Below, piece by piece: positions 8,157 to 24,726 of a stretch of DNA of 64,000 bases; the stretch's first letter is position 1, and each line of letters begins with the position of its first letter. The stretch comes from Pseudomonadota bacterium (GTDB taxonomy: Bacteria > Pseudomonadota > Gammaproteobacteria > Xanthomonadales > Xanthomonadaceae): contig JAFEFT010000021.1 of the NCBI GenBank assembly GCA_018240435.1, positions 1 through 64,000 of the forward strand, given 5' to 3'. The notes beneath the pieces are model-generated. The model saw only the letters and a list, made by a program, of their open reading frames with translations, made no database searches and had not been told where the DNA came from. Position numbers and translations under genes: made by a program.

Positions 8157-8600
8157 GTGTTCAATCGGATTCTGGTCGTATGTGTCGGCAACATCTGTCG
8201 CAGTCCCACCGCCGAGTACCTGTTGCGTGCGCGCCTCGGCGGCAAGGGGCATGAGGTTGCCAGTGCCGGTTTGAGCGCGATGGTCGGGCAGGCGATGGAG
8301 CCGACGGTGGCCGAGTTGCTGCGCGAGAACGGCATCGACGGCAGCGCCCATCGCGGACGTCAGGCGACCGGGGAGCTGTTGCGCCAGGCCGATCTGATCC
8401 TGACGATGGAGAAGGTGCATTCGGCGACGATCGTGCGCGGGTTCCCGGAAGTCAGCGGCAAGGTTTTTCTCCTCGGCAAGTGGCAGTCCGACCTCGACAT
8501 TCCCGATCCCTACCGGCAACCGCGCCATGCTTTCGTCCACGCCTACCGTTTGATCGACCAGAGCATCGACGGCTGGTTGCCTTACCTGAAAAAACACTGA
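8157..8600 (+). CDS. Low-molecular-weight protein-tyrosine phosphatase (Wzb-type)
   Basis: This enzyme dephosphorylates phosphotyrosine. In capsule and exopolysaccharide loci its target is the C-terminal tyrosine cluster of the Wzc kinase encoded next. The 147-residue protein has the P-loop CVGNICRS (C-x5-R-S) at residues 9-16 and the general-acid motif DPY in DIPDPYRQ. It begins with GTG; AGGGAG lies about 13 bp upstream, a rather long spacing. Arsenate reductases share the fold, but the DPY motif and position next to a tyrosine kinase favour a phosphatase. It is the first gene of the locus; the usual wza gene is not seen before it. Confidence 0.9.
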   Translation: MFNRILVVCVGNICRSPTAEYLLRARLGGKGHEVASAGLSAMVGQAMEPTVAELLRENGIDGSAHRGRQATGELLRQADLILTMEKVHSATIVRGFPEVSGKVFLLGKWQSDLDIPDPYRQPRHAFVHAYRLIDQSIDGWLPYLKKH

Positions 8601-8640: not shown

Positions 8641-10866
8641 ATGAGCCAAGTTGCCAGCGCTGTCGCCACCCCCCACGACGATGAAATCGATTTTGCCGCG
8701 CTCGTCGGGACCTTGATCGACAACAAGTGGCTGATCGCGACCATCACCGGGGTCCTGCTGGTGCTGAGCGTCGCCTACGCGTTTCTGGCGACACCGATCT
8801 ACGAAGCCGATGGCCTGGTCCAGGTCGAACAGAAAGTGCCTGACCTGCCCGGGCTGAGCGCGCTCACCGAGACGCTGGGGGCGTCCAGTTCGCAGGCGAC
8901 CACCGAAATCGCCTTGATCACCTCGCGCACCAACATCGGCGGGGCGATGAGCGCCTACAACATGGCGATCAGCGTCGGCCCGCATCGTTTCCCGCTGATC
9001 GGCAAGTATCTGGCGCGCGGATACGCCGGTGATCATCCGGGCGCGCTGGCCGATATTCGTTGGGGGATGAACAGCTACGGCTGGGGTGGCGAGAGGCTTT
9101 CCATTCCCCAGCTCGACGTTCCCGATGGCATTCTCGGGCAAACCATGCTGCTCGTCGTCGGGGATGGCGGCAGCTACTCGTTGTACGCGCCCAGCCTGTT
9201 CTTTCCGACCGGCACCCTGCTGGTCAAGGGGCGGGTCGGCGAGGTGGCGAAGGGCAACGGCGTGACGATCCTGGTCGACCAGCTGGTGGCGCACCCTGGC
9301 ATGCGCTTCGATGTCGTGCGCAACACCGACCTGGCGACGATCAACTTGCTGCAAACCCAGATCACGGCCACCGAGCAGGGCACCGACTCGGGCATCATCG
9401 CCATCACTTACGACGACGCCGATCCGGCGCGTGCGCAAGGCTTCATGAACAAGCTGATGCAGTTGTATGTCAAGCAGAACGTCGATCACAACGCCGAGGA
9501 GGCGGCCAAGAGCCTGACCTTCGTCAAGGAACAGATTCCCGGCGTGAAAAAACAGCTCGACGACGCCACCGCCGCCCTCAACCGTTATCAGCAGAGCGCC
9601 GGCTCGGTCGACATCACGATGCAGACCAAGGGCCTGCTCGATCAGGAGGTGGCGATCGAGACCAGCATCCAGCAATTGCGCCAGCAACAGGCCGAAATCG
9701 CCAACAAGTACACACCCGAGCATCCGGCCTACCGGGCGCTGATGCAGCAGATCGGACAGTTGCAGGCGCAGAAGGCGGCCATCGAAAAGCAGGTCGGCAA
9801 GCTGCCCGACACCCAGCAGGAACTGCTCCGGCTCACCCGCGACGTCACCGTCAGCAACACCACCTACACCTCGTTGCTGGGCCAGGCGCAGCAGCTGGAC
9901 ATCGCCCGCGCCGGTACCGTCGGCAACGTTCGCATCATCGACAACGCGTCCGTCGACATCATGAATCCGGTCAAGCCGAAGAAGGCGCTGGTGATCATCG
10001 GCGGCACCTTCCTTGGCGGCTTCCTGTCGGTCGCCTGGGTGTTCCTCGTGCAGATCCTGCGCAAGGGCGTGGAAGATCCGGCCGAGATCGAGAAAATCGG
10101 TCTGCCGGTCTACGCATCCATCCCGGTCAGCGCCAAGGAAAAATCGATCACCGTGCACGGCCGCGATCGTCACGCCGACGGCAAGCAGCACCTGCTGGTG
10201 GTCAGCGCGCCCGAGGATGTCGCCACCGAGGCCTTGCGCAGCTTGCGCACCAGCCTGCATTTCGCGCGCCTGGAGGCGAAAAACAACATCCTGATGATTT
10301 CCGGCCCGAGCCCCAACGCCGGCAAGACCTTCGTCGCCACCAACCTCGCCGCGGCGGTGGCGCAGGGCGGCCAGAAGGTGTTGCTGATCGACGGCGACAT
10401 GCGTCTGGGCACCATGCACGACGTGATCGGCGGCAAGTCCGAAGGCGGCCTTTCCGAGCTGATCGCCGGGCAGATCGAGCTGGCGCAGGCGCTGCGCCAG
10501 GTGGCCAACGTCGACAACCTGTTCTTCATCGCCCGCGGCAAAGTGCCGCCCAACCCGTCCGAGCTGCTGATGCATCCGCGCTTTTCGGCGCTGCTCGAAA
10601 AGCTCAAGGCGAGCTTCGACATGGTCATCATCGACACCCCGCCGATCCTGGCGGTCACCGATGCGGCGATCATCGGCAGCCATGCCGGCACCAGCATGAT
10701 GGTCGCGCGCTTCGGCCTCAATCAGGTGCGCGAAATCGCCTTGGCGGTGCAGCGTTTCGAACACAATGGCGTCGAGATCAAGGGCGCGATCTTCAATGCC
10801 GTCGAGCGCCGCCATACCGGCTACGCATCGTACGGCTACTACGATTACTACAAGACTTCCCGCTGA
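8641..10866 (+). CDS. Polysaccharide copolymerase/tyrosine autokinase (Wzc-type)
   Basis: This inner-membrane protein controls chain length and export in Wzx/Wzy pathways through autophosphorylation. The 741 residues contain a Wzz domain with a first membrane helix near residues 28-50, a long coiled-coil periplasmic part (KEQIPGVKKQLDDATAALN) and a second helix near 445-465. The cytoplasmic BY-kinase domain has Walker A in SGPSPNAGKTFVATN (about 554-568), Walker A' in LLIDGDMRLG and Walker B in MVIIDTPPI. The C-terminus has six tyrosines in GYASYGYYDYY. It follows its presumed phosphatase by 40 bp. The fused copolymerase-kinase is typical of proteobacteria. Confidence 0.95.
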   Translation: MSQVASAVATPHDDEIDFAALVGTLIDNKWLIATITGVLLVLSVAYAFLATPIYEADGLVQVEQKVPDLPGLSALTETLGASSSQATTEIALITSRTNIGGAMSAYNMAISVGPHRFPLIGKYLARGYAGDHPGALADIRWGMNSYGWGGERLSIPQLDVPDGILGQTMLLVVGDGGSYSLYAPSLFFPTGTLLVKGRVGEVAKGNGVTILVDQLVAHPGMRFDVVRNTDLATINLLQTQITATEQGTDSGIIAITYDDADPARAQGFMNKLMQLYVKQNVDHNAEEAAKSLTFVKEQIPGVKKQLDDATAALNRYQQSAGSVDITMQTKGLLDQEVAIETSIQQLRQQQAEIANKYTPEHPAYRALMQQIGQLQAQKAAIEKQVGKLPDTQQELLRLTRDVTVSNTTYTSLLGQAQQLDIARAGTVGNVRIIDNASVDIMNPVKPKKALVIIGGTFLGGFLSVAWVFLVQILRKGVEDPAEIEKIGLPVYASIPVSAKEKSITVHGRDRHADGKQHLLVVSAPEDVATEALRSLRTSLHFARLEAKNNILMISGPSPNAGKTFVATNLAAAVAQGGQKVLLIDGDMRLGTMHDVIGGKSEGGLSELIAGQIELAQALRQVANVDNLFFIARGKVPPNPSELLMHPRFSALLEKLKASFDMVIIDTPPILAVTDAAIIGSHAGTSMMVARFGLNQVREIALAVQRFEHNGVEIKGAIFNAVERRHTGYASYGYYDYYKTSR

Positions 10867-11005: not shown

Positions 11006-12442
11006 ATGGTGTTGATGCCGGGCCACGCAGGAGTTCGCAGGGGCGATTCGACATTCCTGTCGAAATACGCGGCCCTGTTCGAGATGCTGCAACGCGTCGG
11101 CGATCTTGGCATCCTGCTGGCCACTGCCGTCGTCTGCCATTGGTTCCGCTTCGGAACCACACAGATCAACCCCTCGCTGACGAATCTGCTGGTCGTGGCG
11201 ATGCTGCTGGTGCTGCTGGTGTTCCCGGTGTTCGGCCTGTACCGGAGCTGGCGTGGCGAAGGCGTCGCCGAGGAGGTCGCCCGCATCGCGCTGGCGTGGA
11301 CGGTCGTGGTGGCGATCACCGCGATCGTTGGCTGGTGGCTGGCCGACATGGGCCGCCCCTCGCGCGACTGGGGGCTGGCGTGGTACCTGTCGACCATCGT
11401 CGCGCTGGGCGCGCAGCGCGGCATGGTGCGCTGGGCACTGCGCCGGATCCGCAGTCGCGGCCTGGACAGCCGCGACGTGGTCATCATCGGTGCCACCCGG
11501 ACCGGCGATGACATCGCCCAGGCGATGCAGCGCAATGCCTGGATGGGGCTGCGCGTTCTCGGCCACGTGCGCACCGACTATGACCAGATGGTGGTCGATC
11601 CGGGCAAGGATCTGGGCGATGTCGATGCGTTCATCGCCAGCCTGCGCGAGCGGGTACCCAGCCAGGTCTGGATTGCGTTGCCGCTGCGTGCCGAAGAATT
11701 GATCCGCACGCTGATGGACGCCACCGCCGATCTTCCCATCACCGTGCGCCTCGTGCCCGACCTGTTCGGCTTCGACCTGCTCAACCACGGGGTCACCAGC
11801 GTCGGCGACATTCCCGTCATCACCCTCCAGGGCAAGCGACTGGAAGGGCGGTCGCAGGCCAGCAAGGCGATCGAGGACGTGGTGCTCGGCAGTTTGATCC
11901 TGATCCTGATCGCGCCGTTGATGGCGCTGATCGCGGTTGGCGTCAAACTCAGCTCGCCCGGGCCGGTTCTGTTCCGGCAACGCCGCCACGGATTGGGCGG
12001 GGAAGTGGTGGACGTCTGGAAGTTCCGTTCCATGCGGGTGCATCAGGAAGACCACGGGCAAGTCACCCAGGCCACCCGCGGCGACGCGCGCATCACGCCG
12101 TTCGGTCGCTTCCTGCGTGCCACCAGTCTCGACGAGCTGCCGCAGTTCATCAACGTGCTGCAAGGGCACATGTCCATCGTCGGCCCGCGGCCGCATGCGG
12201 TCGAGCACAACAACCATTACCGGGATCTGGTGCCCCGCTACATGACCCGCCACAGCATGAAGCCGGGCATCACCGGCTGGGCGCAGGTCAACGGCTTCCG
12301 CGGCGAGACCGATACCCTCGACAAGATGATCAAGCGGGTCGAATACGACATCCACTACATCCAGAACTGGTCGGTCTGGCTGGATTTGCGCATCATCGCC
12401 CTGACCATCGTCCGCGTGTTCTTCCAGCGCAGCGCGTACTGA
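11006..12442 (+). CDS. Undecaprenyl-phosphate glucose phosphotransferase (GumD/WcaJ type)
   Basis: This enzyme starts repeat-unit synthesis by moving hexose-1-phosphate, usually glucose, from UDP-sugar to undecaprenyl phosphate. The 478-residue protein has four or five N-terminal membrane helices (about residues 30-130) and a central nucleotide-binding-like region (VVIIGATRTGDDIA). A further hydrophobic segment precedes the C-terminal bacterial sugar transferase domain, with LFRQRRHGLGG, KFRSMRVH, SLDELPQFINVL, MSIVGPRPHAVEHN and KPGITGWAQVNGFRGET. These match the PHPT family that includes GumD and WcaJ. The 139-bp spacer before it holds no gene; GAAGGGAG precedes the ATG. Glucose as the sugar is inferred from the subfamily. 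Confidence 0.93.
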   Translation: MVLMPGHAGVRRGDSTFLSKYAALFEMLQRVGDLGILLATAVVCHWFRFGTTQINPSLTNLLVVAMLLVLLVFPVFGLYRSWRGEGVAEEVARIALAWTVVVAITAIVGWWLADMGRPSRDWGLAWYLSTIVALGAQRGMVRWALRRIRSRGLDSRDVVIIGATRTGDDIAQAMQRNAWMGLRVLGHVRTDYDQMVVDPGKDLGDVDAFIASLRERVPSQVWIALPLRAEELIRTLMDATADLPITVRLVPDLFGFDLLNHGVTSVGDIPVITLQGKRLEGRSQASKAIEDVVLGSLILILIAPLMALIAVGVKLSSPGPVLFRQRRHGLGGEVVDVWKFRSMRVHQEDHGQVTQATRGDARITPFGRFLRATSLDELPQFINVLQGHMSIVGPRPHAVEHNNHYRDLVPRYMTRHSMKPGITGWAQVNGFRGETDTLDKMIKRVEYDIHYIQNWSVWLDLRIIALTIVRVFFQRSAY

Positions 12443-12487: not shown

Positions 12488-13885
12488 ATGACGCTCAAGC
12501 ACACGATCGTCCACGGAACCCTGTGGGCCGGCGGCGCGCAGGTGCTCTCGATGGGCTGCAACTTCCTGCTCACGATCGTGCTGGCGCGTGGCCTGACTCC
12601 GACCGAGTACGGCCTGTACTTCATCGCTCTGAACACCATCGTCATCCTGGTCAATGTCGGCACGGTCGGAATGGACCGATCGACCGTCCGCCTGGCATCG
12701 GTTCGCCTCGTCGAGAAGGATTGGCAGGGTCTGCGGGCCTTGCTGGCGATGTGTTTCCGGATCGTGGTGGTGTGTTCGCTCGCTGCCGCCGCCGGCTTTC
12801 TCATCGCAGGTCCGTACGCGATGACGAACTGGCTGCACGCTCCGGGGCTGTTGCCGTACATCGCGGTCATGGCGGCATGGCTGGTTGCGGCCACGGTGCA
12901 GGGTGAGCTGACGGAGGCGTTCCGCGGCCTCAACGACATTCGCATGGCCTCGTTGTTTGGCGGCGTGCGCAGCAATGGCATCGTGATGGCCGTGGCGGTG
13001 TGCGGCCTGATGGGCGCACTGGCGTGGCTGGGGCGGCTGACGCTGGCCAGTGCGTTGTGGATCATGGTGATGGTCGCCGTTGCCAGCGTCGTCGTCGGAG
13101 CCGCCATCCTGGTCGCGCGCATCCGCCGGCTGACGGCTGCGCCGGCCACTACCGCCACCGCTTCCCCATGGAGCGTTCGCGACGCCCTCGCCGACGGCTG
13201 GCCGTACTGGATCGCCGCGATCATCGTCGCCCTTCGCCTGCAAGGTGGTGCCTGGCTGGCCGGCGCCTTCGACAGCAACGACAAGGTGGCCCTGTACGGT
13301 GTCGCGCAGCGGATGATGCTGTTGCTGGCCGGCCCGATGATCATTTCCAACGCGGTATTGCCGCCGATCGTCGCCCAGTTGCACGCCTCCGGGCAGGTTC
13401 GCCGGCTCGAACGGGTGGTGCGTTCGGTGAGCGGTTTGATTCTGCTGCCGTCGCTGGTGCTGACCATCGTCCTGGTGGTCGCCGGCAAGTTCATCCTGCA
13501 CGGACTGTTCAGTGCATTCTACGAAGCGGCGTATCCATTGCTGATCATCCTGTGCATCGGCCAGACCGCCAACATCGCCACCGGCGCCTGGCAAACGGTG
13601 TTGCCGATGACCGGCAATCAACGCCTGATGCTGGTCACCAGCGTGCTGGCGATGGCCATCCAGCTTGGCCTGGGCTTGTGGCTTGGCTTTTTGTACGGGG
13701 TGCTGGGCATCGCCATCAGCTTCGCCGCCAGCGTCACCGTTGCCAACCTCGTCGGCATGCTGTTCGTGCGCTGGCGGCTGGGCATCTGGACGTTCGCCAC
13801 GCTGGACGCGACAACCATCAAGGATGCCTCGGGGCTGGTTCTGGCAAAACTGCGGGGACGCAAGGCGGCATGGCAGAAGGTATGA
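12488..13885 (+). CDS. Oligosaccharide flippase (Wzx-type)
   Basis: This is a MOP-superfamily polytopic protein expected to flip the undecaprenyl-linked repeat unit across the inner membrane. The 465 residues contain about twelve hydrophobic helices. The N-terminal pattern TLWAGGAQVLSMGCNFLLT with ARGLTPTEYGLYF is the usual start of the polysaccharide-synthesis transporter family. Its stop codon overlaps the next start (ATGA), which predicts translational coupling to the sulfur genes. Substrate specificity cannot be read from sequence. Confidence 0.9.
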   Translation: MTLKHTIVHGTLWAGGAQVLSMGCNFLLTIVLARGLTPTEYGLYFIALNTIVILVNVGTVGMDRSTVRLASVRLVEKDWQGLRALLAMCFRIVVVCSLAAAAGFLIAGPYAMTNWLHAPGLLPYIAVMAAWLVAATVQGELTEAFRGLNDIRMASLFGGVRSNGIVMAVAVCGLMGALAWLGRLTLASALWIMVMVAVASVVVGAAILVARIRRLTAAPATTATASPWSVRDALADGWPYWIAAIIVALRLQGGAWLAGAFDSNDKVALYGVAQRMMLLLAGPMIISNAVLPPIVAQLHASGQVRRLERVVRSVSGLILLPSLVLTIVLVVAGKFILHGLFSAFYEAAYPLLIILCIGQTANIATGAWQTVLPMTGNQRLMLVTSVLAMAIQLGLGLWLGFLYGVLGIAISFAASVTVANLVGMLFVRWRLGIWTFATLDATTIKDASGLVLAKLRGRKAAWQKV

Positions 13886-15975
13886 ACATTGCCGGTTCCA
13901 CGGGCGCGGCGGCGCCTGCCACCGCGCCGTATGCCGAGGCGCTGGTGCGCACGCTCGCGCTGCTGGCGCGCATCGACCGGGACTATCGTCCGGCGGTGCT
14001 GGCCAACGGCTTCGGGCCGGAAAGCATGGTGCTGACCGACCTGATCGCACGCCATGATTTGGCGATCGAGATCATTTCCCTCGATACCGGGCGATTGCCC
14101 GATGAAACCCACATCCTCGCGCAGAACGCATTCAAGCGTTACGGTGCGCGCATCCGGATGATCTCGCCCGATCCGGCCGCATTGCAGGACTGGGTGCTGG
14201 CGAACGGGCCCAATGGCTTTTACCAAAGCGTCGAGCAGCGTCGCGATTGCTGCCGCCTGCGCAAAGTGGAGCCGTTGCGGCGCGTGCTGGCCGGCAAGAA
14301 GGCCTGGCTGACCGGGTTGCGCCGCGAGCAGGCGCCCAGCCGTGGGCAACTGGGCGAGCACGCCTGGGATGGCGAGCACGGGCTGGACAAGTTCAACCCG
14401 ATGATCGACTGGACGGCGGCCCAGGTCTGGGCCTACATCCACGATCACTCGGTGCCTTACAATGCGCTGCACGATCAGGGATATCCCAGCGTCGGCTGCT
14501 CTCCATGCACGCGCGCGGTCGCTCCGGGCGAGGACATCCGGGCCGGCCGTTGGTGGTGGGAACGCGAAACCGCGAAGGAGTGCGGTTTGCACATGAACCC
14601 GTCGACCGGTCAGCTGGAGCGGGCCGTCAAGGCCGGTGCTGCCGCCGAGCCGGCGCCGGAGCTGCGCACGTTCCGTACGCCGGCCATCGGCGTGTCCGAA
14701 TCGATACTCGCCGCGCGAGCGGCGTTCAACACGCATCTCATCAAGAAGGAAGGGAGACGGAAAATGAAAGTTCTCGTATTGGGTGGCGATGGTTTCTGCG
14801 GCTGGCCCACCGCATTGCACCTTTCGGCGCAGGGCCACGACGTGGCCATCGTCGACAACCTCTCGCGCCGCAACATCGATATCGAGCTGGAGTGCGAATC
14901 GCTGACGCCGATCCGGCCGATGGGCGAGCGCCTGCGGGCATGGAAAGAGGTCAGCGGCAAGACCATCGCCTTCCACAATCTCGACGTGGCGGTGAACTAC
15001 CAGCGCCTGCTCGACCTGATCCTGGCGTGGAAGCCCAACGCCATCGTGCATTTCGCCGAGCAGCGCGCGGCGCCGTATTCGATGAAGAGCAGCCGCCACA
15101 AGCGCTACACGGTCAGCAACAACCTCAATGCCACCAACAACGTGCTGGCGGCGGTGGTCGAGAGCGGGCTGGATATCCACATCGCCCATCTGGGCACGAT
15201 GGGCGTGTACGGCTATGGCACGGCCGGCATGAAGATCCCCGAGGGCTACCTCAAGGTGCAGGTCGAGATCGAAGGCGGCCGGATGGTCGAGAACGAGATT
15301 CTCTACCCGGCCAATCCGGGCAGCATCTATCACATGACCAAGACCCAGGATCAGTTGCTGTTCCTGTACTACAACAAGAACGACAAGGTGCGCGTGACCG
15401 ACCTGCACCAGGGCATCGTCTGGGGCACCCAGACCACCGAAACCCGCCTCGACGAGCGCCTGATCAATCGTTTCGACTACGACGGTGACTACGGCACCGT
15501 GCTCAATCGTTTCCTGATGCAGGCGGCGGTCGGCTACCCGCTCAGCGTCCACGGCACCGGTGGCCAGACCCGCGCCTTCATCCATATCCAGGACACGGTC
15601 AAGTGCATCCAGCTCGCGCTCGAGAACCCGCCGGCGCACGGCGAGCGTGTGCAGATCTTCAACCAGATGACCGAGACCCATCGCGTGCGTGATCTGGCCA
15701 AGATGATTTCCGACCGTACCGGCGTGAAGATCGACTTCGTGCCCAACCCGCGCGTCGAAGCCGACGAGAACGAGTTGCACGTCGCCAACGACCGCTTCCT
15801 GCATCTGGGTCTGGAGCCGATCACGCTCAACGACGGCCTGATGGAGGAAGTCACCCAGATCACCCGCAAGTACGCCGACCGTTGCGACCGCAGCAAGATT
15901 CCGTGCGTGTCGTTCTGGCGCAAGCCGGCGGCGGCGGCGGCGGCGCCGGCGCCGGAGTCGGTCGCCGCGGGTTGA
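13882..15975 (+). CDS. APS reductase (CysH-type) fused in frame to UDP-sulfoquinovose synthase (SqdB)
   Basis: One 697-codon frame joins two enzymes. Residues 1-250 match [4Fe-4S] assimilatory adenylylsulfate reductases. The cluster cysteines are Cys123-Cys124 (RRDCCRLRK) and Cys206/Cys209 (VGCSPCTRAV), the catalytic cysteine is Cys234 in KECGLHMNPSTG, and ISLDTGRLPDET binds substrate. It would reduce APS to sulfite with thioredoxin. Residues 295-697 match SqdB, which makes UDP-sulfoquinovose from UDP-glucose and sulfite. They contain the NAD motif GGDGFCGWPTALHL, TMGVYGYG, the YxxxK motif in SIYHMTKTQ and HGTGGQTRAFIHI. A linker of about 45-60 residues lies between them. The start overlaps the flippase stop (ATGA); ATG at 13870 is an alternative. 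An internal Shine-Dalgarno sequence and ATG could also give free SqdB. Confidence 0.88.
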   Translation: MNIAGSTGAAAPATAPYAEALVRTLALLARIDRDYRPAVLANGFGPESMVLTDLIARHDLAIEIISLDTGRLPDETHILAQNAFKRYGARIRMISPDPAALQDWVLANGPNGFYQSVEQRRDCCRLRKVEPLRRVLAGKKAWLTGLRREQAPSRGQLGEHAWDGEHGLDKFNPMIDWTAAQVWAYIHDHSVPYNALHDQGYPSVGCSPCTRAVAPGEDIRAGRWWWERETAKECGLHMNPSTGQLERAVKAGAAAEPAPELRTFRTPAIGVSESILAARAAFNTHLIKKEGRRKMKVLVLGGDGFCGWPTALHLSAQGHDVAIVDNLSRRNIDIELECESLTPIRPMGERLRAWKEVSGKTIAFHNLDVAVNYQRLLDLILAWKPNAIVHFAEQRAAPYSMKSSRHKRYTVSNNLNATNNVLAAVVESGLDIHIAHLGTMGVYGYGTAGMKIPEGYLKVQVEIEGGRMVENEILYPANPGSIYHMTKTQDQLLFLYYNKNDKVRVTDLHQGIVWGTQTTETRLDERLINRFDYDGDYGTVLNRFLMQAAVGYPLSVHGTGGQTRAFIHIQDTVKCIQLALENPPAHGERVQIFNQMTETHRVRDLAKMISDRTGVKIDFVPNPRVEADENELHVANDRFLHLGLEPITLNDGLMEEVTQITRKYADRCDRSKIPCVSFWRKPAAAAAAPAPESVAAG
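14746..14756 (+). promoter_or_regulatory. Internal ribosome binding site at the CysH-SqdB junction
   Basis: AAGGAAGGGAG lies 7 bp before an in-frame ATG that starts the SqdB-like part exactly where free SqdB proteins begin. No stop codon separates it from the reductase part. Either two genes have merged by loss of a stop, or both a fusion and a free SqdB are made. Confidence 0.75.
14764..15975 (+). CDS. sqdB: UDP-sulfoquinovose synthase from the internal start (same frame as the fusion)
   Basis: Read from the internal ATG, this is a complete 403-residue SqdB beginning MKVLVLGGDGFCGWP, the normal length and N-terminus of the family. The Rossmann motif, the Thr in LGTMGVYGYG and the Tyr/Lys pair of YHMTK are intact. 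Generic sugar epimerases lack the extended insert with LECESLTPIRPM and the AEQRAAPYSM segment seen here, both typical of SqdB/SQD1. No sulfoquinovosyl-diacylglycerol synthase gene (sqdX or sqdD type) is seen nearby. Polysaccharide genes flank it, so the sugar is probably destined for polysaccharide. The C-terminus is an Ala/Pro-rich tail. Confidence 0.6.
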   Translation: MKVLVLGGDGFCGWPTALHLSAQGHDVAIVDNLSRRNIDIELECESLTPIRPMGERLRAWKEVSGKTIAFHNLDVAVNYQRLLDLILAWKPNAIVHFAEQRAAPYSMKSSRHKRYTVSNNLNATNNVLAAVVESGLDIHIAHLGTMGVYGYGTAGMKIPEGYLKVQVEIEGGRMVENEILYPANPGSIYHMTKTQDQLLFLYYNKNDKVRVTDLHQGIVWGTQTTETRLDERLINRFDYDGDYGTVLNRFLMQAAVGYPLSVHGTGGQTRAFIHIQDTVKCIQLALENPPAHGERVQIFNQMTETHRVRDLAKMISDRTGVKIDFVPNPRVEADENELHVANDRFLHLGLEPITLNDGLMEEVTQITRKYADRCDRSKIPCVSFWRKPAAAAAAPAPESVAAG

Positions 15976-16046: not shown

Positions 16047-17759
16047 ATGGGTTCGCGACGGATTGCTGCAGCGTTGGTTGCCGCCGGTTGCCTGCTGGCG
16101 ATGCCGGCCGTGGCCGGTCTGGCCGCGGGCCCGGGGAACACCCCCTTCTGGATCGGGTTGAGCGATCCCGGCCAGGTCGATCAACAGGTTTCGCGGATGC
16201 TCGCCGAACATGCGGTGACGATCGCCGTGCGCCTGGCCGATGGCGGTGATGGCGGCCGCGCGGTCGTCGCACGTCTGAAAAAGGCGGCGCCACAGACGCC
16301 GGTGCTGATGTACGCCTGGGCCAGCCGCAACCTGCGCGGGCGGCCGGGGAGCGCCGGCATCATCGACTGGCTGGATCAGCATCCGGAGTGGCAGATCAAT
16401 ACCGGCTGGGGTCGCGCGCTGGCAGGGTTTCCCGACGTGACCAACGCCGCGTTCCAGAGCCGACTGGCCGGAAGCATCGCCGGTGCCGTGGCGCGCGGCG
16501 GTTTCGACGGCGTGGCGCTGGATCTGGCGATCCGCACGCCGCGCTACCGACCCGGTCCGTTGGCGCGCCTGTGCAAGGCCGATGCGACCTTTTGCCGAAA
16601 CTACGCGGCTGGCATGGATGCCACCTTCGACGCCATCCGTGGCAGTTTGCGCGGCAAGGCCGTTCTCTACAACGGCATCTGGAATCAGGGGCCCGGCTCG
16701 GTCGACGACCAACTTCTGCTGCTGGCGCATGCCGATGCGGCGATCGTCGAGTTTTTCGGTGGCGACGTGAAGGGCGATTCGCGCGGCTTCAGCCAGGATG
16801 TCCTGCCCTACCTGCAGGCGATGGCGAAGGTCCCGGACGACAAGAAGCTGTTCGTGTTCGGCCGCGCCTCGCGGCAATACGATGCCTACGCCGAAGACTA
16901 TGCGCGGCAGCGTTACCTGTATTGCGCCTACCTGCTCGGCGCGCGCAAGAACACATACTTCAAGTACCACGCGACGTTCCAGTCCGGCGTGCCGGAGGGG
17001 CGCAGCGGCGGCTTGTCGATCTACGCCGACTGGTCGACGAACCTCGGGGCGCCGAGCAAGGCCTACACGGTGCAGGCGAACATCTACTCACGGCCGTTTG
17101 CGCATGGGCTGGTGGTGGTCGCGCCCGATGATGGCAGCGGTGGCAGCTTCACCCTGCCGCGGACGATGTACTCCCCCGAGGGCGACACATATTCCGGAAC
17201 GGTGGCATTGCGGCCGGGACAGGGCCTGTTGCTGCTCGACGCCAAGCCGGCCGAGGACAACGACCAGCACTTGCTCGATCTGCGACTGGCAAGCGACTGG
17301 CCGGCGGCGACGCTCGGCGGTACCGCGGCCGCGCCGGTGCTGGACCTGCAGCCGGCGGCCGCGGGTGCGCATGACTTGCTGCTCGATCCGATCCGGACGC
17401 AGCGCCCGCGCAAGCTTCTGCGGCTGGGCGTGCGGCCGACCGATGCCAGCGCCGGGATCGATCTGCTCGTCGAAGTCGACGATTCGGAGCGTCGTTCGCA
17501 GTGGGCGATGATCCACATCGGCGTCAAGGGCGCGGCCGGTTCGGGCAACGGCGCCAGCGCGATCGGCTTTCGCATGCGTTCGCCGGCGCGGGCGGCGATG
17601 CCGTTGGTGAGTGGGCCGTCGGTGACCGCGGGCAACTGGCAGAACCTGGAACTGGATGGCGCCGCACTGCTGGCGAAGTCGGGCTTGACGTTTCGACGCT
17701 GGGATTTCGCGCGTTTCAATGGTGCGATCCAGGTCCGCGCGGTCACGCTGGCACGATAG
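16047..17759 (+). CDS. Exported putative glycoside hydrolase (GHL15-like TIM barrel)
   Basis: The 570-residue protein begins with a signal peptide (MGSRRIAAALVAAGCLLAMPAVAG). The start was chosen because GGAG lies 6 bp upstream and the signal peptide begins there. The middle, to about residue 400, looks like the hypothetical glycosyl hydrolase 15 family: PVLMYAWASRN, HPEWQINTGWG, FPDVTNAAFQSRL, GGFDGVALDLA and, near the end, the FAHGLVVVAPDD segment. A C-terminal part of about 150 residues resembles a beta-sandwich. Inside the locus it could trim or release polymer in the periplasm, but no member activity is known to me and no catalytic residues can be assigned with confidence. Confidence 0.7.
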   Translation: MGSRRIAAALVAAGCLLAMPAVAGLAAGPGNTPFWIGLSDPGQVDQQVSRMLAEHAVTIAVRLADGGDGGRAVVARLKKAAPQTPVLMYAWASRNLRGRPGSAGIIDWLDQHPEWQINTGWGRALAGFPDVTNAAFQSRLAGSIAGAVARGGFDGVALDLAIRTPRYRPGPLARLCKADATFCRNYAAGMDATFDAIRGSLRGKAVLYNGIWNQGPGSVDDQLLLLAHADAAIVEFFGGDVKGDSRGFSQDVLPYLQAMAKVPDDKKLFVFGRASRQYDAYAEDYARQRYLYCAYLLGARKNTYFKYHATFQSGVPEGRSGGLSIYADWSTNLGAPSKAYTVQANIYSRPFAHGLVVVAPDDGSGGSFTLPRTMYSPEGDTYSGTVALRPGQGLLLLDAKPAEDNDQHLLDLRLASDWPAATLGGTAAAPVLDLQPAAAGAHDLLLDPIRTQRPRKLLRLGVRPTDASAGIDLLVEVDDSERRSQWAMIHIGVKGAAGSGNGASAIGFRMRSPARAAMPLVSGPSVTAGNWQNLELDGAALLAKSGLTFRRWDFARFNGAIQVRAVTLAR

Positions 17760-18105
17760 GCAGGCGATGATCGAGGTGTTGGCCGGGCGGCGGGGATTGC
17801 CTGAGGCTCGGGCCGGCCGTTCGTGCGCAGGGGCGCGCGGGCAGGCTGGGGGGCGGGCGACGTCGACGCCGATCGGCCGCGACGCATGGCCGCGCTTGGC
17901 GGGTGTCGGGGAGGTGATCGCGCACTCGTCCTGCCGGCCGATCACCGCCCGATGATCCGCTGGTCGATGGCCGGCTGTTCAATGGCCGCGGCAATGATTG
18001 GCTGGAGTCCAGGCGCGTCTGAACTTATCATGACCGACCGTCGACGATAGCGGCGGCGGGATCGACTGGCCGCGTGTGCCAGGGTCGCGGTACTCGGCTC
18101 GGGAA
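17760..18105. other. 346-bp spacer inside the exopolysaccharide locus
   Basis: No convincing gene is seen. Short frames here are GC-rich noise without ribosome binding sites. TATCAT near 18027 could be a -10 element for the polymerase gene, but no -35 partner fits. The locus may therefore be two transcription units. Confidence 0.5.
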
Positions 18106-19662
18106 ATGGCAATGACACAACGTGTGCTGCGGACATTGATGCCATCCTCGCCGATCCTGCTGCTGGCAGCCGTTTCGGCCGGGCTGGCGATCGTGTCGCT
18201 GCTGTTCGGTGCATTGCTTTCCGACCTGGGTTCGTCGGAGTTGGTGGCGATCGGCTGGTCGATGTTCGCCGTCATTTGTTTCGCGGTCTGGGCGCGCAAG
18301 TCCTTCGACGTGTTCGAGCCGATCGTGCCGATGGCGATCTCCACTTTCATCGGCGGCACCCTGCGTTCGATGTACATCGCCTGGTCGCCGCGCGATTACA
18401 GCGTCGTCCAGTTTCTTGTCGGTGACATGACGCCGTCGCAATTGGCCCAATACGAGTTCATGGTGCCGATCGCGCTGGCATCGATGGCGCTGGGTTATCT
18501 GGCGTGGCGTGGACGGGTGCCGATCGAACGCCTGCCGGTGATGCGCAATACCCAGTGGCCGGCGGCACGCACGTTGCTCATCGCCGGAACATACGCGCTG
18601 CTCGGCATGATCGGCGTCTACATCCTGATCAAGAGCACCGGCATCTCCTTTGCCGGGCTGGCCGGCTTGTCGGCCAAGCGCACGATCGACTTGTCGAGCC
18701 AGGGCGGCGATCAGTACGCGCATGCCGGATATCTGCGCTGGCTGGCCGCTTGCCTGCGGGTGTCGTTGTTGTTGCTGTACATGGCGTGGGCCTCGCGCAA
18801 GGATGCCGACGGCAATCCCAAGCCATTCGGCCCGTTCCGGGCGATCGTGCTGGTCGGCCTGTTGCTGGCCTGCATGGTGTGGCCGGTGTTGAGCAGTTCG
18901 CGCACGGCGGTGATCGAAATCGTCTTCAACCTGATGGTCATCTACGTCTATGCCCGCAACCGCGGCAACTTCGGCCGTTTTTTCCGCATCTGCATGACCG
19001 TGCTGGTTTTCGCGCTGGTGGTGCTGGTCGGCATGGGGTTGTGGCGCAACCTGTCGCAGCGCGGCACCGTCACCCCGGCGCCGTTCCTGCAGACCTTCGC
19101 CGATCAGTCGCTGGGTTCGGGCAACTTCCTGCCGGCCGAGCGCGCCGCATTCATCATGGCCAATTACGGCGACCGGCCTTATCGCTACGGGTCGAGCTAT
19201 CTGGTCTGGCTGACCATGCCGATCCCCAAATCGCTGTGGCCCGACCGTCCGGACATCTCCGAGATGGACGATTTCGTGAAAGGCCAGATCTACGGGCGCG
19301 ACGTAATCCAGGGTGGCTATCCGCCGGGGATGATCGGCGAGGCCTACATCAACTTCGGCTATTTCGGCGTGCTGTTCATCCCGTTCCTGCTCGGTGCCCT
19401 GCAACGCTTCGTCTACGTGACGTTCCGGCCGCTGCTGGGCGTCAATCGCAATGCGACCTTGCTGTACGCGGCCATCCTGTGGGAGATCGGGTTCCAGGTG
19501 GCTGACCTGAACATTTCGCTGCTCATGGCCAACGTGATCACGACCGTGCTGCCGTTGCTGCTGGCATTCGCGTTCATGAAGAAGGCGCCGGCAGGGCTGG
19601 CTGCGCCGGCCGCGGCGGTCGCGCCGTTGCCGGCATTGGCGATCAAGGGCCGCCCCGCATGA
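18106..19662 (+). CDS. O-antigen/exopolysaccharide polymerase (Wzy-type)
   Basis: This 518-residue inner-membrane protein is expected to join repeat units on the periplasmic face. It has about ten to twelve hydrophobic helices and one large hydrophilic loop (about residues 320-420) containing FADQSLGSGNFLPAERAAF, MPIPKSLWPDRPDI and GYPPGMIGEAYINFGYFGV. The last resembles the conserved end of oligosaccharide repeat-unit polymerases. Such proteins are poorly conserved, so the assignment rests on topology, this loop and the setting between flippase and transferase genes. Two Met codons (18106 and 18112) are possible starts. Confidence 0.85.
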   Translation: MAMTQRVLRTLMPSSPILLLAAVSAGLAIVSLLFGALLSDLGSSELVAIGWSMFAVICFAVWARKSFDVFEPIVPMAISTFIGGTLRSMYIAWSPRDYSVVQFLVGDMTPSQLAQYEFMVPIALASMALGYLAWRGRVPIERLPVMRNTQWPAARTLLIAGTYALLGMIGVYILIKSTGISFAGLAGLSAKRTIDLSSQGGDQYAHAGYLRWLAACLRVSLLLLYMAWASRKDADGNPKPFGPFRAIVLVGLLLACMVWPVLSSSRTAVIEIVFNLMVIYVYARNRGNFGRFFRICMTVLVFALVVLVGMGLWRNLSQRGTVTPAPFLQTFADQSLGSGNFLPAERAAFIMANYGDRPYRYGSSYLVWLTMPIPKSLWPDRPDISEMDDFVKGQIYGRDVIQGGYPPGMIGEAYINFGYFGVLFIPFLLGALQRFVYVTFRPLLGVNRNATLLYAAILWEIGFQVADLNISLLMANVITTVLPLLLAFAFMKKAPAGLAAPAAAVAPLPALAIKGRPA

Positions 19663-19759
19663 ACGACGGTGCCCGGGATCGGGCGCGCCGCGTGCGCGCC
19701 CGTCGATGCCTGCGGGGCGCGTGGACGCAGTGGGTCGCGTTGCCGTGCAAGGCGGCGTC

Positions 19760-20659
19760 ATGACCGCGCTGCGGCTGCCGGACTTCGCCATCGTCGGCGC
19801 GCAAAAGTCCGCATCGACGTTCGTCCAGGATGCGCTGCGCACGCACCCGGACATCTTCATGCCGGCCGGCGAAACGCGGTTTTTCGAAGATCCGGAATAC
19901 GGCGACGGCAACCTTGCCGGGCTGGCCGCGTCGTTTGCCGATTGCCGGCAACGGCGGATCGGCATCAAGCGGCCCGACTACCTCGGGCGACCGGAAGTGC
20001 CGGCGCGGCTGCGCAGCGCCATTCCCGACCTGCGTGTCGTCGTGGTCCTGCGCCACCCGATCGATCGTCTGGTGTCGGCGTACTACTACTACATCAAGCT
20101 CGGCTTCCTGCCGGTGCTGGACATCAACGAGGCGATCGCGCGCTTGTTGCGTGGCGAGCCGATCGGCAACCCGAAATCGCGCGACCTGCTCGACTACGGC
20201 AATTACGCCACCCACCTGCAGCGATACTTCTCGCTGTTTCCGCGAGAGCAGATCAGGGTCTTGTTGCAAGAAGACGTCGTGGCCGGTGAGCGGGAGGCGA
20301 TCGCCGGGATTTGCACGTTCGTGGGCGTCGACCCGGCGCGCATGGGCGCCATGCCGCCGCGCGCGAACACCGGCGTATATCCGCTGCGTCGCCTGCGTTT
20401 CCTGACCCGGCGCAACCGCCATCTGTACGACTACGACGCCGTCACCGGCAAGCTCAAGCCGCACCCGATGACGATCGGCCGCTGGTTGCCCGCGGCCGCC
20501 ATCACCGCCGTCGATCGTCTGGTGCTGGCGCGCATGATCGGCAACCGCAAGCCGCGGCTTCACGAGAGCACGCAGGCCATGCTCGCCGAGTATTATCGTG
20601 CCCAGATCGAAGAGACCGCGCAGCTGCTCGGACGTGATCTGGGGGGGTGGCTGCGATGA
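19760..20659 (+). CDS. PAPS-dependent sulfotransferase
   Basis: Members move sulfate from PAPS to hydroxyl or amino groups of sugars. The 299-residue protein has the 5'-phosphosulfate loop GAQKSASTF (residues 13-21) and the 3'-phosphate motif VVLRHPIDRLVSAYY (about 94-109). LPDFAIVGAQK is the usual start of heparan-type sulfotransferases. The chosen ATG has AAGG 7 bp upstream; an earlier in-frame Met is not supported. The stop overlaps the start of a second sulfotransferase-like gene. In this setting it probably sulfates the polymer or its lipid-linked unit. No signal peptide is seen, so it should act in the cytoplasm. Confidence 0.9.
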   Translation: MTALRLPDFAIVGAQKSASTFVQDALRTHPDIFMPAGETRFFEDPEYGDGNLAGLAASFADCRQRRIGIKRPDYLGRPEVPARLRSAIPDLRVVVVLRHPIDRLVSAYYYYIKLGFLPVLDINEAIARLLRGEPIGNPKSRDLLDYGNYATHLQRYFSLFPREQIRVLLQEDVVAGEREAIAGICTFVGVDPARMGAMPPRANTGVYPLRRLRFLTRRNRHLYDYDAVTGKLKPHPMTIGRWLPAAAITAVDRLVLARMIGNRKPRLHESTQAMLAEYYRAQIEETAQLLGRDLGGWLR

Positions 20660-21408
20660 CCGGCCTGCGCACTCTGCTCGCACGCGGGCGATACGGATTT
20701 AGGGTGCGGATCTCGCACTTGCCGGCGATCTATCTGCCGATGGCGGCGCGCAAGCGGCGGATGGTCGGCCTGGATGGCGATCGCGACGCCGCCACGCCCG
20801 TGGTGATGGCGACGCAGCTGGTGATGGAGGCGTTCCCGCGCAGCGGCAACACCTTCGCGTACGCTGCGCTGCGATCGGTCGAGCCGACGCTGGAGATCGC
20901 ACACCACCTGCACGCGCCCGCGCAGTTGATCGCCGCGGCGCGAATGGGCAAGCCGGCGCTGGTGATCGTGCGGCAACCGCGTGATGCCGTCCTTTCTTTC
21001 CTGCTGCGCCATCCGGAACTCGGCACCCGGCAGGCGCTGGATGCGTGGATCGCCTTCCACGAAAAATTGCGACCTTGGGAGGATAGCCTGGTGGTGGCGA
21101 CATTCGATCAGGTCACCAGCGACTTTGGTCGAGTGATCGCCCGCGTCAATGGCCGCTTCGGGACATCGCTGGCGGTTTTCGAGCACACGCCCGGCAACGT
21201 CGCGGCCTGCTTTGCCGCCATCGAAGCGCGCAATGCCAAGCGCTTCGGCGCCGGCGCCGTGCAGGAATCCGGCGTCGCCAGGCCATCGGCCGAGCGCCAG
21301 CGAAACAAGGCGGACACCGAAGCGCGATGGGAGCGCGCGGTCCGTGCAGTCCGGCGTGCCCGGGCCGATGGGCTGTTCGCTCACTTCGAGCGCTTGAGCA
21401 GGCGCTGA
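20656..21408 (+). CDS. Second sulfotransferase-like P-loop protein
   Basis: The 250-residue product starts at an ATGA overlap with the preceding sulfotransferase. It has a different 5' loop, AFPRSGNTF (residues 59-67), and a 3'-phosphate motif VIVRQPRDAVLSF (103-115). Both are typical of sulfotransferase domain families. Sequence likeness to the neighbour beyond these motifs is low, so it is not a recent duplicate. A distinct acceptor site is likely. The C-terminal third is rich in Arg and Ala and gives no motif. Confidence 0.8.
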   Translation: MTGLRTLLARGRYGFRVRISHLPAIYLPMAARKRRMVGLDGDRDAATPVVMATQLVMEAFPRSGNTFAYAALRSVEPTLEIAHHLHAPAQLIAAARMGKPALVIVRQPRDAVLSFLLRHPELGTRQALDAWIAFHEKLRPWEDSLVVATFDQVTSDFGRVIARVNGRFGTSLAVFEHTPGNVAACFAAIEARNAKRFGAGAVQESGVARPSAERQRNKADTEARWERAVRAVRRARADGLFAHFERLSRR

Positions 21409-21561
21409 TGGCGATGGCGCCGGGCCGGTCGGCGAGGGTCGTGGCGGCGCCGATCGAGGCGATGATCGGATGTGGTTGTCCGTTTGCGACCGCGTTTTTG
21501 CGTTTGCCGACAGATGGGTGTTCGCCTCCATGGGCGAACTGGTTTCGGGATGGGGCGGGCG

Positions 21562-22671
21562 ATGGCTGAGGCAACGAGGATTTCCTATCTCGCACCGGTG
21601 TTCGAGCCGGCGATCGGCGGTGGCGTGGTGTACGTCGCCATCCTCGCCCGCGAGCTTCCTGCGCGCATTGCCGGCAGCGTGTTCGCCGTCGTCACCGAGG
21701 CCTACCCGGGGTCGCCCGCGCACGAGACGCGCGCCGATGGCAAGGTTGAAGTGCATCGGGTGTTCCCCTTTCGCGCCGGCCAATCGACGCGTGGCGTCGG
21801 CGCCTACGTCGCCTATGCGATGCAGAACGCGCAGTTCTTCGGGTTGTACCGCTGGCTGCCGCGCCGCGGCGTGCTGTTCGTCCATGGTTCGTTTTTCAAC
21901 AACCCGGGAGCGATCTGGCCCGCGCTGCGGCTGGTTCGTAGATTGCGCCCGCACTTGCGTCTGATCCTCGACCTGCGTGATCCGAAATTTCCCGCGTCCC
22001 TTGCCCGGAAGGCGAACTGGTTCGATGCGACGGTGAGTTGCTCGCGCAACATCAGCGCCCGCCTGCCCGGCGTCGAGCACTTGTGGGACATTCCGGTGAT
22101 GATCGAACAACGTCATTTCGACGTCGATGAATTGGCGGCGGTGCTTGTCAGGCACCGTCTGGAAGGACGGCGCTACGTCTTCAACGGCAGCGGCTTCAAC
22201 GAAGGCAAGGGCTCGTCGGAGTTGCTCGAATTGGTGCGCGAGATCCGCAAGCGGCAGCCGGACATCGTGCTGGCGGTGGCAGGCAAGCGGCGGCACTGGA
22301 CGCCGGCCATGGAATCGGCAGTGCGCGAGGGCTGGCTGCTGCCTCTGGGCATCATTGCCTCGATCGACGTGCGCGCGATTTCGGCGGCATCCTGGCTCGA
22401 TGCCAATCTGTCGCGCGTCGACAGCTTTCCTCGGCATTCGCTGGAAGCGCTTGCCAGTGGCGCACGCGTGCTGCTGCCTGCGGGGGTGCCGGAGTTCGCC
22501 GACACCTGTCCGGAACACATCGGCGATCCAGGCCGGGGCACCAGCGCGTTGGCCGAGCAGGCGATCGCGATTGCCGATGGCACCATCGGCAGCTGTCCTT
22601 ACCCGTGGCGCCAGCACCTTCCCGATGCGGTGATGGCGCAATACGTCGACCTGATTGCTTCGCTGCACTGA
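21562..22671 (+). CDS. Glycosyltransferase, GT4-like (GT-B fold)
   Basis: The 369-residue protein begins ISYLAPVFEPAIGGGVVYVAILARE, the usual GT-B N-terminal pattern with a Gly-rich loop. It carries YVFNGSGFNEGKGSSELLELV as the start of the second Rossmann domain and VDSFPRHSLEALASGARVL as the equivalent of the E-x7-E donor-binding motif, although the first glutamate is replaced. It should add one sugar to the growing repeat unit. Met codons at 21550 and 21562 are both possible; GGGGCGGG precedes the second. A spacer of about 150 bp separates it from the sulfotransferases. Confidence 0.82.
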   Translation: MAEATRISYLAPVFEPAIGGGVVYVAILARELPARIAGSVFAVVTEAYPGSPAHETRADGKVEVHRVFPFRAGQSTRGVGAYVAYAMQNAQFFGLYRWLPRRGVLFVHGSFFNNPGAIWPALRLVRRLRPHLRLILDLRDPKFPASLARKANWFDATVSCSRNISARLPGVEHLWDIPVMIEQRHFDVDELAAVLVRHRLEGRRYVFNGSGFNEGKGSSELLELVREIRKRQPDIVLAVAGKRRHWTPAMESAVREGWLLPLGIIASIDVRAISAASWLDANLSRVDSFPRHSLEALASGARVLLPAGVPEFADTCPEHIGDPGRGTSALAEQAIAIADGTIGSCPYPWRQHLPDAVMAQYVDLIASLH

Positions 22672-22735
22672 CCCTGCCGCGTCGCTGATCCCAAACCGTT
22701 CACCGATCCCACCATCGCCTTTCGCAGAGATACAC

Positions 22736-23476
22736 ATGCCGGCACCAGGTTTGCTCGCCAAGTTCGCCAAGCTGCGCCGGATCCTCGCGGTGCCGGGTTA
22801 TCGCGCAGCGTTGCGCAGGGGCGCGGCCGCCGGCGTCGAGCACGCACGCGTGCTGCGGCAGATTCCATGCCGAACGGTGGTCGACATCGGCGCCAATCGG
22901 GGCCAGTTCGCACTGGTGGCCAGGGCCTGCTTTCCGGCGGCGAACATCATCAGTTTCGAGCCGCTGGCGGCACCGGCCGACATCTTCGCGCGCGTGTTTG
23001 CCGGCGATGCGCAAACCCGGCTGGTGCGTGCGGCGATCGGCCCGACCCGTGGCCAGACGACGATCCATGTCTCGCAACGCGACGATTCGTCGTCGCTGCT
23101 GCCGATCACCCCGGCGCAGAACGAACTATTCCCGGGCACTGCCGAGGCGCGCACCGAGACCATCACGACCGCGCGTCTGGCCGAACATCTGGATGCCGAT
23201 GCGATCGCCGCGCCGGCCCTGCTCAAGCTCGACGTGCAGGGCTTCGAACTGCCGGCGCTGGAGGGATGCGAGGATCGCTTGCGCCATTTCGAGTGGATCT
23301 ACGCGGAGTGCTCGTTCGCCGAGCTGTACCAAGGGCAGGCGCTGGCCGACGAGGTGATCGCCTGGTTGCGGGACAGAGGGTTTCGTCTGGTGGGCGTGTA
23401 CAACATGTCCTACGACGAACGCGGCCGCGCCATCCAGGCCGATTTCCTGTTCCGCATCGTGGGCGGGCATGAATGA
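22736..23476 (+). CDS. FkbM-family methyltransferase
   Basis: The 246-residue SAM-dependent enzyme has motif I VVDIGANRGQF (about residues 48-58) followed by ISFEPLAAPADIF. KLDVQGFELPALEG and EWIYAECSFAELY complete the FkbM pattern. Family members O-methylate sugars in polysaccharides and natural products. In this locus it probably methylates a sugar of the repeat unit. Its stop overlaps the next start (ATGA). Confidence 0.88.
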   Translation: MPAPGLLAKFAKLRRILAVPGYRAALRRGAAAGVEHARVLRQIPCRTVVDIGANRGQFALVARACFPAANIISFEPLAAPADIFARVFAGDAQTRLVRAAIGPTRGQTTIHVSQRDDSSSLLPITPAQNELFPGTAEARTETITTARLAEHLDADAIAAPALLKLDVQGFELPALEGCEDRLRHFEWIYAECSFAELYQGQALADEVIAWLRDRGFRLVGVYNMSYDERGRAIQADFLFRIVGGHE

Positions 23477-24726
23477 ACATCCTCATTCATGGTCTCAACT
23501 ACGCACCCGAGCCGACCGGCACCGGCAAGTACACGGCCGAGATGGCGCAGTGGCTGGCGGCGCGCGGCCATCGCGTCGAGGTCGTCTGCGGGCTGCCGCA
23601 TTACCCGCAATGGAGCCTGGATCCGGACTACGCCGATGGTCGTGCCCGCGTCGAGCAGCGCGATGGCGTGCGCGTGCTGCGGGCGCCGCATTTCGTGCCG
23701 AGCGCGGACGCGCTGACCGCCGGCGCCCGCATCCGCCTTGAAACCAGCTTCACGCTGTCGTCCTTGCGCTACTGGCTGGGCCGCTTCTTCGGCCGTCGCC
23801 CGGATGTGGTGATCGCGGTGATGCCGCCGATGCAGGATGCCGTCTGGCCGCTGCTGTATCGCTGGCTGCGGCGCACGCCGTGGGTGTTGCACGTGCAGGA
23901 TCTCCAGGTCGATGCCGCGCTGCGCCTGAACATGCTCAAGGTAGGGCGGCTGGGCCGGGTGCTGTATTGGGTGGAAGGATTCCTGCTGCGCCATGCCACC
24001 CGGGTTTCGACCATCACCGAGGCAATGCGCGCGCGGATCGTCGAGAAGGGCGCCGCCCGCGAGCGCACCTGGCTGTTTCCGAATTGGTCGGACATTGCGA
24101 CGATCACGCCGGGGGCGCGCGACAACCCGTGGCGGCGGTCGCTGGGCCTGGCCGACGACGCGGTGCTGGTGCTTTATGCCGGCAACATGGGCGAAAAGCA
24201 GGGGCTGGATGCGGTGCTCGCTGTCGCGGCCGACTGCCGCGATGATCCGCATTTGCAATTCGTGATGGTCGGCGCCGGTGCGGCGTTGCCGCGCCTGCGC
24301 CAGCGAGCGGCGGAACTGGGCCTGCCCAACCTGCGTTTCCTGCCGGTGCAACCGCTCGAACGGCTGGGTGAAATGCTCGCCGCCGGCGACATCCATCTGG
24401 TCGTGCAAAAGCGCGATGCGGCCGATCTGGTGATGCCGTCCAAGCTCACCAACATCCTTGCCGCCGGTCGCGCCTGCGTCGCCACCGCCGATCCGGGAAC
24501 GGCGCTGCACGATGTGGTCGTCAGTGGTGGCGCCGGCCTTGCCGTCGCGCCCGGCGACCATGCGGCGCTGACCGCGGCGGTGCGTCAGCTGGCCGGTGAC
24601 GCGGCGCGGCGCGATGCCTGCGGCCTGCGCGCACGCGCCCATGCGGAACGACATCTCGACCGGGATCGCATCCTGGGCGAGTTCGAACAAAACCTGATTT
24701 CACTTTGCAAGCGAGGCGGTAAATGA
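23473..24726 (+). CDS. WcaI-family glycosyltransferase
   Basis: The 417-residue GT-B enzyme resembles colanic-acid WcaI, a probable fucosyltransferase: [20 protein letters not shown] at the N-terminus, [43 protein letters not shown] and [13 protein letters not shown]. It is coupled by an ATGA overlap both to the methyltransferase before it and to gmd after it. Being tied to the GDP-fucose genes supports a fucosyl donor. This is inference from family and position. Confidence 0.88.

Follow-up and report, generated by a model that had tools for sequence, protein, structure and literature searches.

The question raised by the locus described here is where a bacterial UDP-sulfoquinovose synthase (SqdB) obtains its sulfite. 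A 2015 paper on the enzyme Agl3 states that the in vivo transfer of sulfite by such synthases was still unknown (PMC4388408). In the 64,000-nucleotide stretch of DNA analyzed in this study (the window; positions 1 to 64,000 of contig JAFEFT010000021.1, assembly GCA_018240435.1, Xanthomonadaceae), positions 13882 to 15975 of the + strand form a single stop-free frame of 697 codons, whose 697-residue product joins a reductase of the adenosine 5′-phosphosulfate (APS) type, CysH (residues 1 to 237; 13882 to 14592), via an in-frame linker of 57 residues (residues 238 to 294; 14593 to 14763) to SqdB (residues 295 to 697; 14764 to 15975). The earlier note on this DNA had proposed such an in-frame fusion, which is confirmed here, the same join being present in three other genomes. 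We consider it probable that the fusion is a bifunctional enzyme of an exopolysaccharide (EPS) operon, which would convert APS through sulfite to UDP-sulfoquinovose, its linker keeping the two sulfite steps together and free SqdB being produced as well.

The assignment of the two halves is supported by profile, motif and structural comparisons. Pfam places PAPS_reduct at residues 39 to 212 (132.8 bits; cutoff, 22.5) and Epimerase at residues 297 to 590, and the NCBIfam placements are residues 33 to 239 for CysH and 295 to 670 for SqdB. The CysH half carries the cluster cysteines (CC at 123/124 and CxxC at 206/209) and the C-terminal ECGLH motif (with Cys234) of 4Fe-4S APS reductases; all five cysteines stand where the earlier note had located them, do not vary when two other fusions are aligned with the window protein, and are accompanied by a passing score for PRK02090 (246; cutoff, 154). 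The closest solved structures of the two halves are the assimilatory APS reductase of Pseudomonas aeruginosa, 2GOY (E value, 3.5e-52), which has the same fold, the cysteines of the cluster and the catalytic Cys and is 38% identical when the two structures are aligned, and Arabidopsis SQD1, both of which were recovered in a single Foldseek run with a whole-chain predicted model. The AlphaFold2 model of the fusion has a predicted template modeling (pTM) score of 0.56, with low confidence across residues 221 to 290 (predicted local distance difference test score below 50 at these residues) and no confidence in the placement of one domain relative to the other. Unlike 2GOY, the CysH of the window is fused to SqdB, lies in an EPS locus and coexists with a separate reductase of the 3′-phosphoadenosine 5′-phosphosulfate (PAPS) type. 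This second CysH (C71) has no cluster cysteines, and its scores are those of the PAPS type (TIGR02057, 223, versus TIGR02055, 117), its TIGR02057 score nonetheless lying below that model's own cutoff of 254, and the fused reductase is therefore an additional enzyme of another kind. An APS kinase gene is also found in the same genome, close to a PF01507 gene read as CysD (C49).

The SqdB half matches SQD1 over its full length (residues 2 to 388; E value, 1e-97) and holds the Thr and YxxxK of a short-chain dehydrogenase/reductase, which bears out the earlier claim that a complete SqdB follows the reductase. It has its fold and catalytic Thr/Tyr/Lys positions in common with SQD1 (41 to 42% identity in the Foldseek rows) and Sulfolobus Agl3, and Thr439, Met440, Tyr443, Tyr483, Lys487, His390 and Arg395 are kept, as matched to Agl3/SQD1 by motif; the position of Agl3 Glu147, however, is occupied by Val442. 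Two SqdB motif classes were evident in the alignment, GTMGEYG (14 rows; SQD1 is alike) versus GTMGVYGY (GSIGVYGY in two rows), and the window protein, with GTMGVYGYG, belongs to a clade in which GVYGY replaces GEYG in every row that contains the motif, which two partial rows lack. Inside this clade lies the SqdB of Sinorhizobium meliloti Ak57 (a pSymB-labelled record), which has GTMGVYGY with Val at the Glu147 position, is 60.9% identical to the window protein and is followed by sqdD- and sqdC-like genes; judging by its ruvAB/tolQR neighborhood, this gene is probably the studied S. meliloti sqdB. This protein and the alphaproteobacterial sqdB-sqdD-sqdC rows of the same clade (61 to 64% identity to the window SqdB) differ from the fusion in that they are separate proteins with sqdD- and sqdC-like genes after them, no CysH having been found nearby. 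Given the Val at the Glu147 position, our claim is therefore one of membership of the GVYGY clade which holds the S. meliloti SqdB, and not of the GEYG branch of SQD1 and Agl3. Several plasmid records call such sqdB genes only “NAD-dependent epimerase/dehydratase family protein.”

Is the join itself real? At the stop-codon frequency of the window, a 57-codon linker would remain open by chance approximately half of the time (approximately 0.48), so that the window alone is weak evidence and other genomes were needed. A scan of 369 genomes of the class with the SqdB half (up to five candidates scored per genome), and then of 19 selected genomes with the CysH half, led to a fusion in a single 683-codon frame (G196:C53); the family of G196 (six genomes) provided a second, on a contig which ends after residue 596 (G427:C205), and a scan of named genomes provided a third (L086), in WQZX01000007.1, a metagenome-assembled genome (MAG) labelled Nocardioidaceae. 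The named-genome set comprised the best 80 among the matches listed for two peptide patterns, and no frequency is therefore drawn from it. Third-position GC of 0.94 to 0.99 in 14 of the 16 genes called on the L086 stretch fits a high-GC actinobacterial contig, though the source is a MAG. Relative to the window, the CysH halves of these fusions are 56 to 63% identical and the SqdB halves 80 to 87%, and their poorly alignable linkers measure 39 (G196), 47 (G427) and 82 (L086) residues. GC at codon positions 1, 2 and 3 is clearly coding-like in the linkers of the window (0.65, 0.56 and 0.81) and L086 (0.57, 0.67 and 0.88). Because three other genomes carry the same fusion, an assembly error or missed stop at the junction is ruled out, as is an open frame that arose by chance in one genome, against which length alone would have been insufficient; the fusion is not a sequencing artifact.

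The fusion is rare. Among 395 genomes of the host's family, 397 of its order and 398 of its phylum (two candidates scored per genome), no fusion besides that of the window was found, which rules out that it is typical of the family or order; since few candidates per genome were scored and the SqdB half was the sole query in the class scan, further fusions may have been missed. In a CysH tree of 31 chosen rows, the fused halves form a clade with the reductases of Oleiagrimonas soli (L124) and Rhodanobacter sp. DHG33 (L186) with support of 99/99; a single fused clade is not rejected (p-AU, approximately unbiased test, 0.32), yet these two unfused proteins fall among the fused ones. The L124 protein (9953 to 10666) is a standalone APS reductase encoded beside an AMP-binding synthetase (Pfam) and, by reading of the sequence, among glycosyltransferase family 2 (GT2), acyl carrier protein and KAS-III-like genes and a DegT-like aminotransferase gene; no SqdB was found in the O. 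soli genome at 1e-30. In an SqdB tree of 77 rows (short search), the fused halves lie in an eight-row group (support, 87) together with proteins from Rhodanobacter, Saccharomonospora, G069 and a gammaproteobacterial MAG in which the contig begins within SqdB. When 23 of these rows were placed in a more careful tree, the group was not resolved, and a single fused clade of SqdB halves is mildly rejected (p-AU, 0.031), with bootstrap unsettled. The fusion may have arisen once, with later losses or transfers, or more than once.

A further feature of the junction is a possible internal start, which the earlier note had suggested could yield free SqdB and which is upheld here. The internal ATG at 14764, from which a 403-residue SqdB could be produced, is preceded by AAGGAAGGGAGACGGAAA; a Shine-Dalgarno (SD)-like stretch lies inside the gene at 14748 to 14756 (+ strand), with GGAG at 14753 to 14756, 7 nucleotides before the ATG. 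GGAG lies exactly 7 nucleotides 5′ of the SqdB ATG in three of the four fusions, L086 having AAGGGAAGGCA. When the in-frame ATGs are ordered by anti-SD pairing energy, that at the junction is second of 15 in the window (where ATG 238 is first), first of 12 in G196, first of 11 in G427 and fourth of 15 in L086. A purine SD core, the set of which was chosen after the data had been seen, precedes all four junction ATGs versus 4 of the 49 other in-frame ATGs (hypergeometric, 2.4e-4). A core of the same kind is present at 65 of the 74 sqdB starts examined (three fused ones included), and the fused genes therefore appear to retain an ordinary sqdB-type ribosome-binding site. As the SD-like sequence and ATG are kept at all four SqdB starts, fused protein and free SqdB are both likely to be made, free SqdB beside the predicted fused product being the natural reading of the retained SD.

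The genomic context points to polysaccharide synthesis. The fusion start overlaps the stop codon of a Wzx-type flippase gene (12488 to 13885) in the sequence ATGA at 13882 to 13885, and this gene is preceded, likewise on the + strand, by those encoding a low-molecular-weight phosphotyrosine phosphatase (Wzb-like; 8157 to 8600), a Wzc-like tyrosine autokinase (8641 to 10866) and the undecaprenyl-phosphate glucose phosphotransferase WcaJ (11006 to 12442; 526.7 bits; cutoff, 410.75). Downstream, again on the + strand, are genes for a GHL15 hypothetical glycosyl hydrolase, which immediately follows the fusion (16047 to 17759), a Wzy-like repeat-unit polymerase (18076 to 19662; TIGR04370, 57 bits; cutoff, 40), a sulfotransferase (19706 to 20659), a sulfotransferase-like protein recognized by motif (PRSGNT and RQPRDAVLS) and without a Pfam match (20647 to 21408), a glycosyltransferase-like protein with a weak TIGR04047 match and none in Pfam (21472 to 22671), an FkbM methyltransferase (22655 to 23476), a GT4 glycosyltransferase (23473 to 24726) and a GDP-mannose 4,6-dehydratase (24723 to 25835). 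Initiating transferase, flippase, polymerase and Wzc co-polymerase thus occur together, as in a Wzx/Wzy-dependent EPS locus. This operon, the separate PAPS-type CysH, the recurrence of the fusion and the placement of its SqdB in the GVYGY clade all go beyond the earlier note. The GHL15 protein could act on the same polysaccharide. The G196 fusion is placed between NusG-like and Wzx-like genes, and that of L086 is followed by genes for a GalE-like protein, a methyltransferase, a GT4 enzyme and two related proteins read as sulfotransferase-like, without Pfam confirmation for the last two.

Unfused pairs of the two genes extend this association. The Wzc locus of Rhodanobacter sp. DHG33 resembles the window in combining an APS reductase from the clade of the fused ones with a UDP-sulfoquinovose synthase in an EPS locus, and differs in that these are two separate genes, approximately 3 kb apart, and that its SqdB belongs to the GTMGEYG class. 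In Pelagovum pacificum, cysH is a gene of its own directly after sqdB, and in Rhodobacteraceae M382 the order is sqdB, a sulfotransferase gene and then a separate cysH, in both cases in polysaccharide-rich plasmid regions. All 32 SqdB loci of the class scan were examined over up to approximately 10 kb on each side, several being shortened by contig ends. A CysH-like gene occurs within 10 kb at six of them, namely, the two fused loci and 4 of the 16 GTMGEYG-type loci (L206, L207, L209 and L210; hence 4 of the 30 unfused ones), and if the window is set aside, at 5 of 31 versus a rough expectation of 0.3 to 0.4, which assumes 1.5 to 2 CysH genes in 3 Mb. The neighbors at L207 and L210 are ordinary cluster-type reductases, and those at L206 (14394 to 14936) and L209 (11380 to 11955) are divergent PF01507 proteins with DPCKGP...ECGLH/ECGIH instead of GCxPCTR...ECGLH, counted as CysH-like only, which are possibly another sulfite-supplying or regulatory variant. 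At L103, a CysH lies approximately 3.6 kb from SqdB on the opposite strand, which was judged to be weak support. The recurrence of unfused reductase/SqdB neighbors therefore provides an independent link between the two enzymes. Two further loci are recorded here: in G069 (L084, 13470 to 16725), genes for an APS kinase, for a protein read as UDP-glucose dehydrogenase and for SqdB stand in a row, which again couples sulfate activation with the making of a sulfosugar, and on a Rhodococcus qingshengii plasmid (L168), a SulP anion transporter gene lies upstream of sqdB and an alkyl sulfatase-type gene downstream.

In the mechanism that we propose, APS from sulfate-activation enzymes encoded elsewhere in the genome would be reduced to sulfite by the CysH half, and the tethered SqdB half would convert UDP-glucose via a 4-keto/5,6-ene intermediate to UDP-sulfoquinovose by adding this CysH-made sulfite, the product then serving the cluster's own glycosyltransferases. 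By means of the flexible linker, production and use of sulfite would be held in proximity, the channelling supposed in the earlier note being a more tentative proposal, and the ribosome-binding site at the junction would provide free SqdB, probably in excess of CysH subunits. Bifunctionality is strongly suggested, and we infer both activities, UDP-sulfoquinovose as the product, its use in a polysaccharide and an advantage of proximity. The Agl3 paper describes UDP-sulfoquinovose for glycoconjugates and reports that, in vitro, the 5,6-ene intermediate accumulates at 0.1 mM sulfite and goes to product at 3 mM (PMC4388408); a local sulfite source should therefore help.

Several observations weigh against this proposal. 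The CysH half narrowly misses the NCBI APS_reductase model TIGR02055 (230.9; cutoff, 235.3), which the CysH halves of G196 (237.9) and L086 (240.4) pass. The SqdB half misses NF041015 (348; cutoff, 575); as this model also excludes the SqdB of S. meliloti (332), that of Loktanella (328) and the GTMGEYG protein of Rhodanobacter (446), its cutoff is evidently narrower than the family. Only Tyr443 of the Glu147-Tyr148 dehydration pair of Agl3 is retained, the fusion is rare, and the linkers of G196 (GC, 0.54, 0.49 and 0.59) and G427 (0.62, 0.70 and 0.66) are weakly or not coding-like. The junction SD of L086 is weak, falling outside the four best ATGs at slightly different settings, and no CysH-like gene was found within approximately 10 kb at 26 of the 32 SqdB loci of the class scan, from which it follows that SqdB generally needs none close by.

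Three other explanations were considered. The join could be neutral, a stop codon having been lost between cotranscribed neighbors without benefit, with free SqdB from the internal start doing the work. Such a history would account for the SD-like stretch and ATG at every junction, a signal which ordinary sqdB genes share, and for the existence of unfused CysH/SqdB neighbors, and it is compatible with the even chance of an open 57-codon linker; it is nevertheless unlikely, in that four diverged genomes retain the fusion, their linkers differing in length and all being in frame and open, and the L086 linker is rich in Pro, Thr, Ala and Ser, like interdomain linkers. SqdB enzymes are best known from the synthesis of the sulfolipid sulfoquinovosyldiacylglycerol (SQDG), and the clade of the window SqdB includes the alphaproteobacterial genes that are followed by sqdD- and sqdC-like ones, so that the fusion might serve lipid rather than polysaccharide synthesis. 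This we regard as quite improbable, as the fusion gene begins within the wzx stop codon of a Wzx/Wzy cluster and a search of the initial 30 kb of the window at 1e-9 found no sqdD- or sqdC-like match, the rest of the genome not having been searched for an SQDG synthase. G196, moreover, encodes another, unfused SqdB, the gene for which overlaps at its start with the end of a GT4 gene in what looks like a lipid-type pair, whereas the fused SqdB of G196 is encoded next to a Wzx-like gene.

The SqdB half might alternatively make another sulfonated or 4-keto/5,6-ene nucleotide sugar, as the replacement of GEYG by GVYGY across the clade could imply: Agl3 with Ala in place of Glu147 or Tyr148 is strongly impaired in conversion (PMC4388408). 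We hold this to be very unlikely, since the seven residues listed above as matched to Agl3/SQD1 are kept and the S. meliloti gene, with its sqdD- and sqdC-like neighbors, shares GTMGVYGY; the S. meliloti SqdB is called a UDP-sulfoquinovose synthase in PMC10315480. A bifunctional APS-to-UDP-sulfoquinovose enzyme of an EPS operon remains the explanation that we favor.

The architecture is a new one assembled from known enzymes. The earlier note knew of no described fusion, and full-text searches of openly licensed papers (on the fusion and on sulfoquinovose with polysaccharides; titles and abstract beginnings) likewise returned no description of a CysH-SqdB fusion among the matches listed. As a fusion found in nature, recurring in several genomes and paralleled by unfused neighbors, it names a donor enzyme and offers a single protein in which coupling can be measured. 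Sulfonated bacterial exopolysaccharides, with carbon-sulfur bonds instead of sulfate esters, are also suggested by the finding and are open to chemical search. We suggest, tentatively and at somewhat less than even odds, that the fusion is a sulfite-channelling enzyme for a sulfoquinovose-bearing EPS in which the in-gene second start determines how much SqdB is fused and how much is free, and that SqdB-tied APS reductases donate sulfur directly to the sulfoquinovose of bacterial surfaces. If true, such reductases, whether fused or neighboring and across several lineages, would explain the source of sulfite for SqdB in these bacteria.

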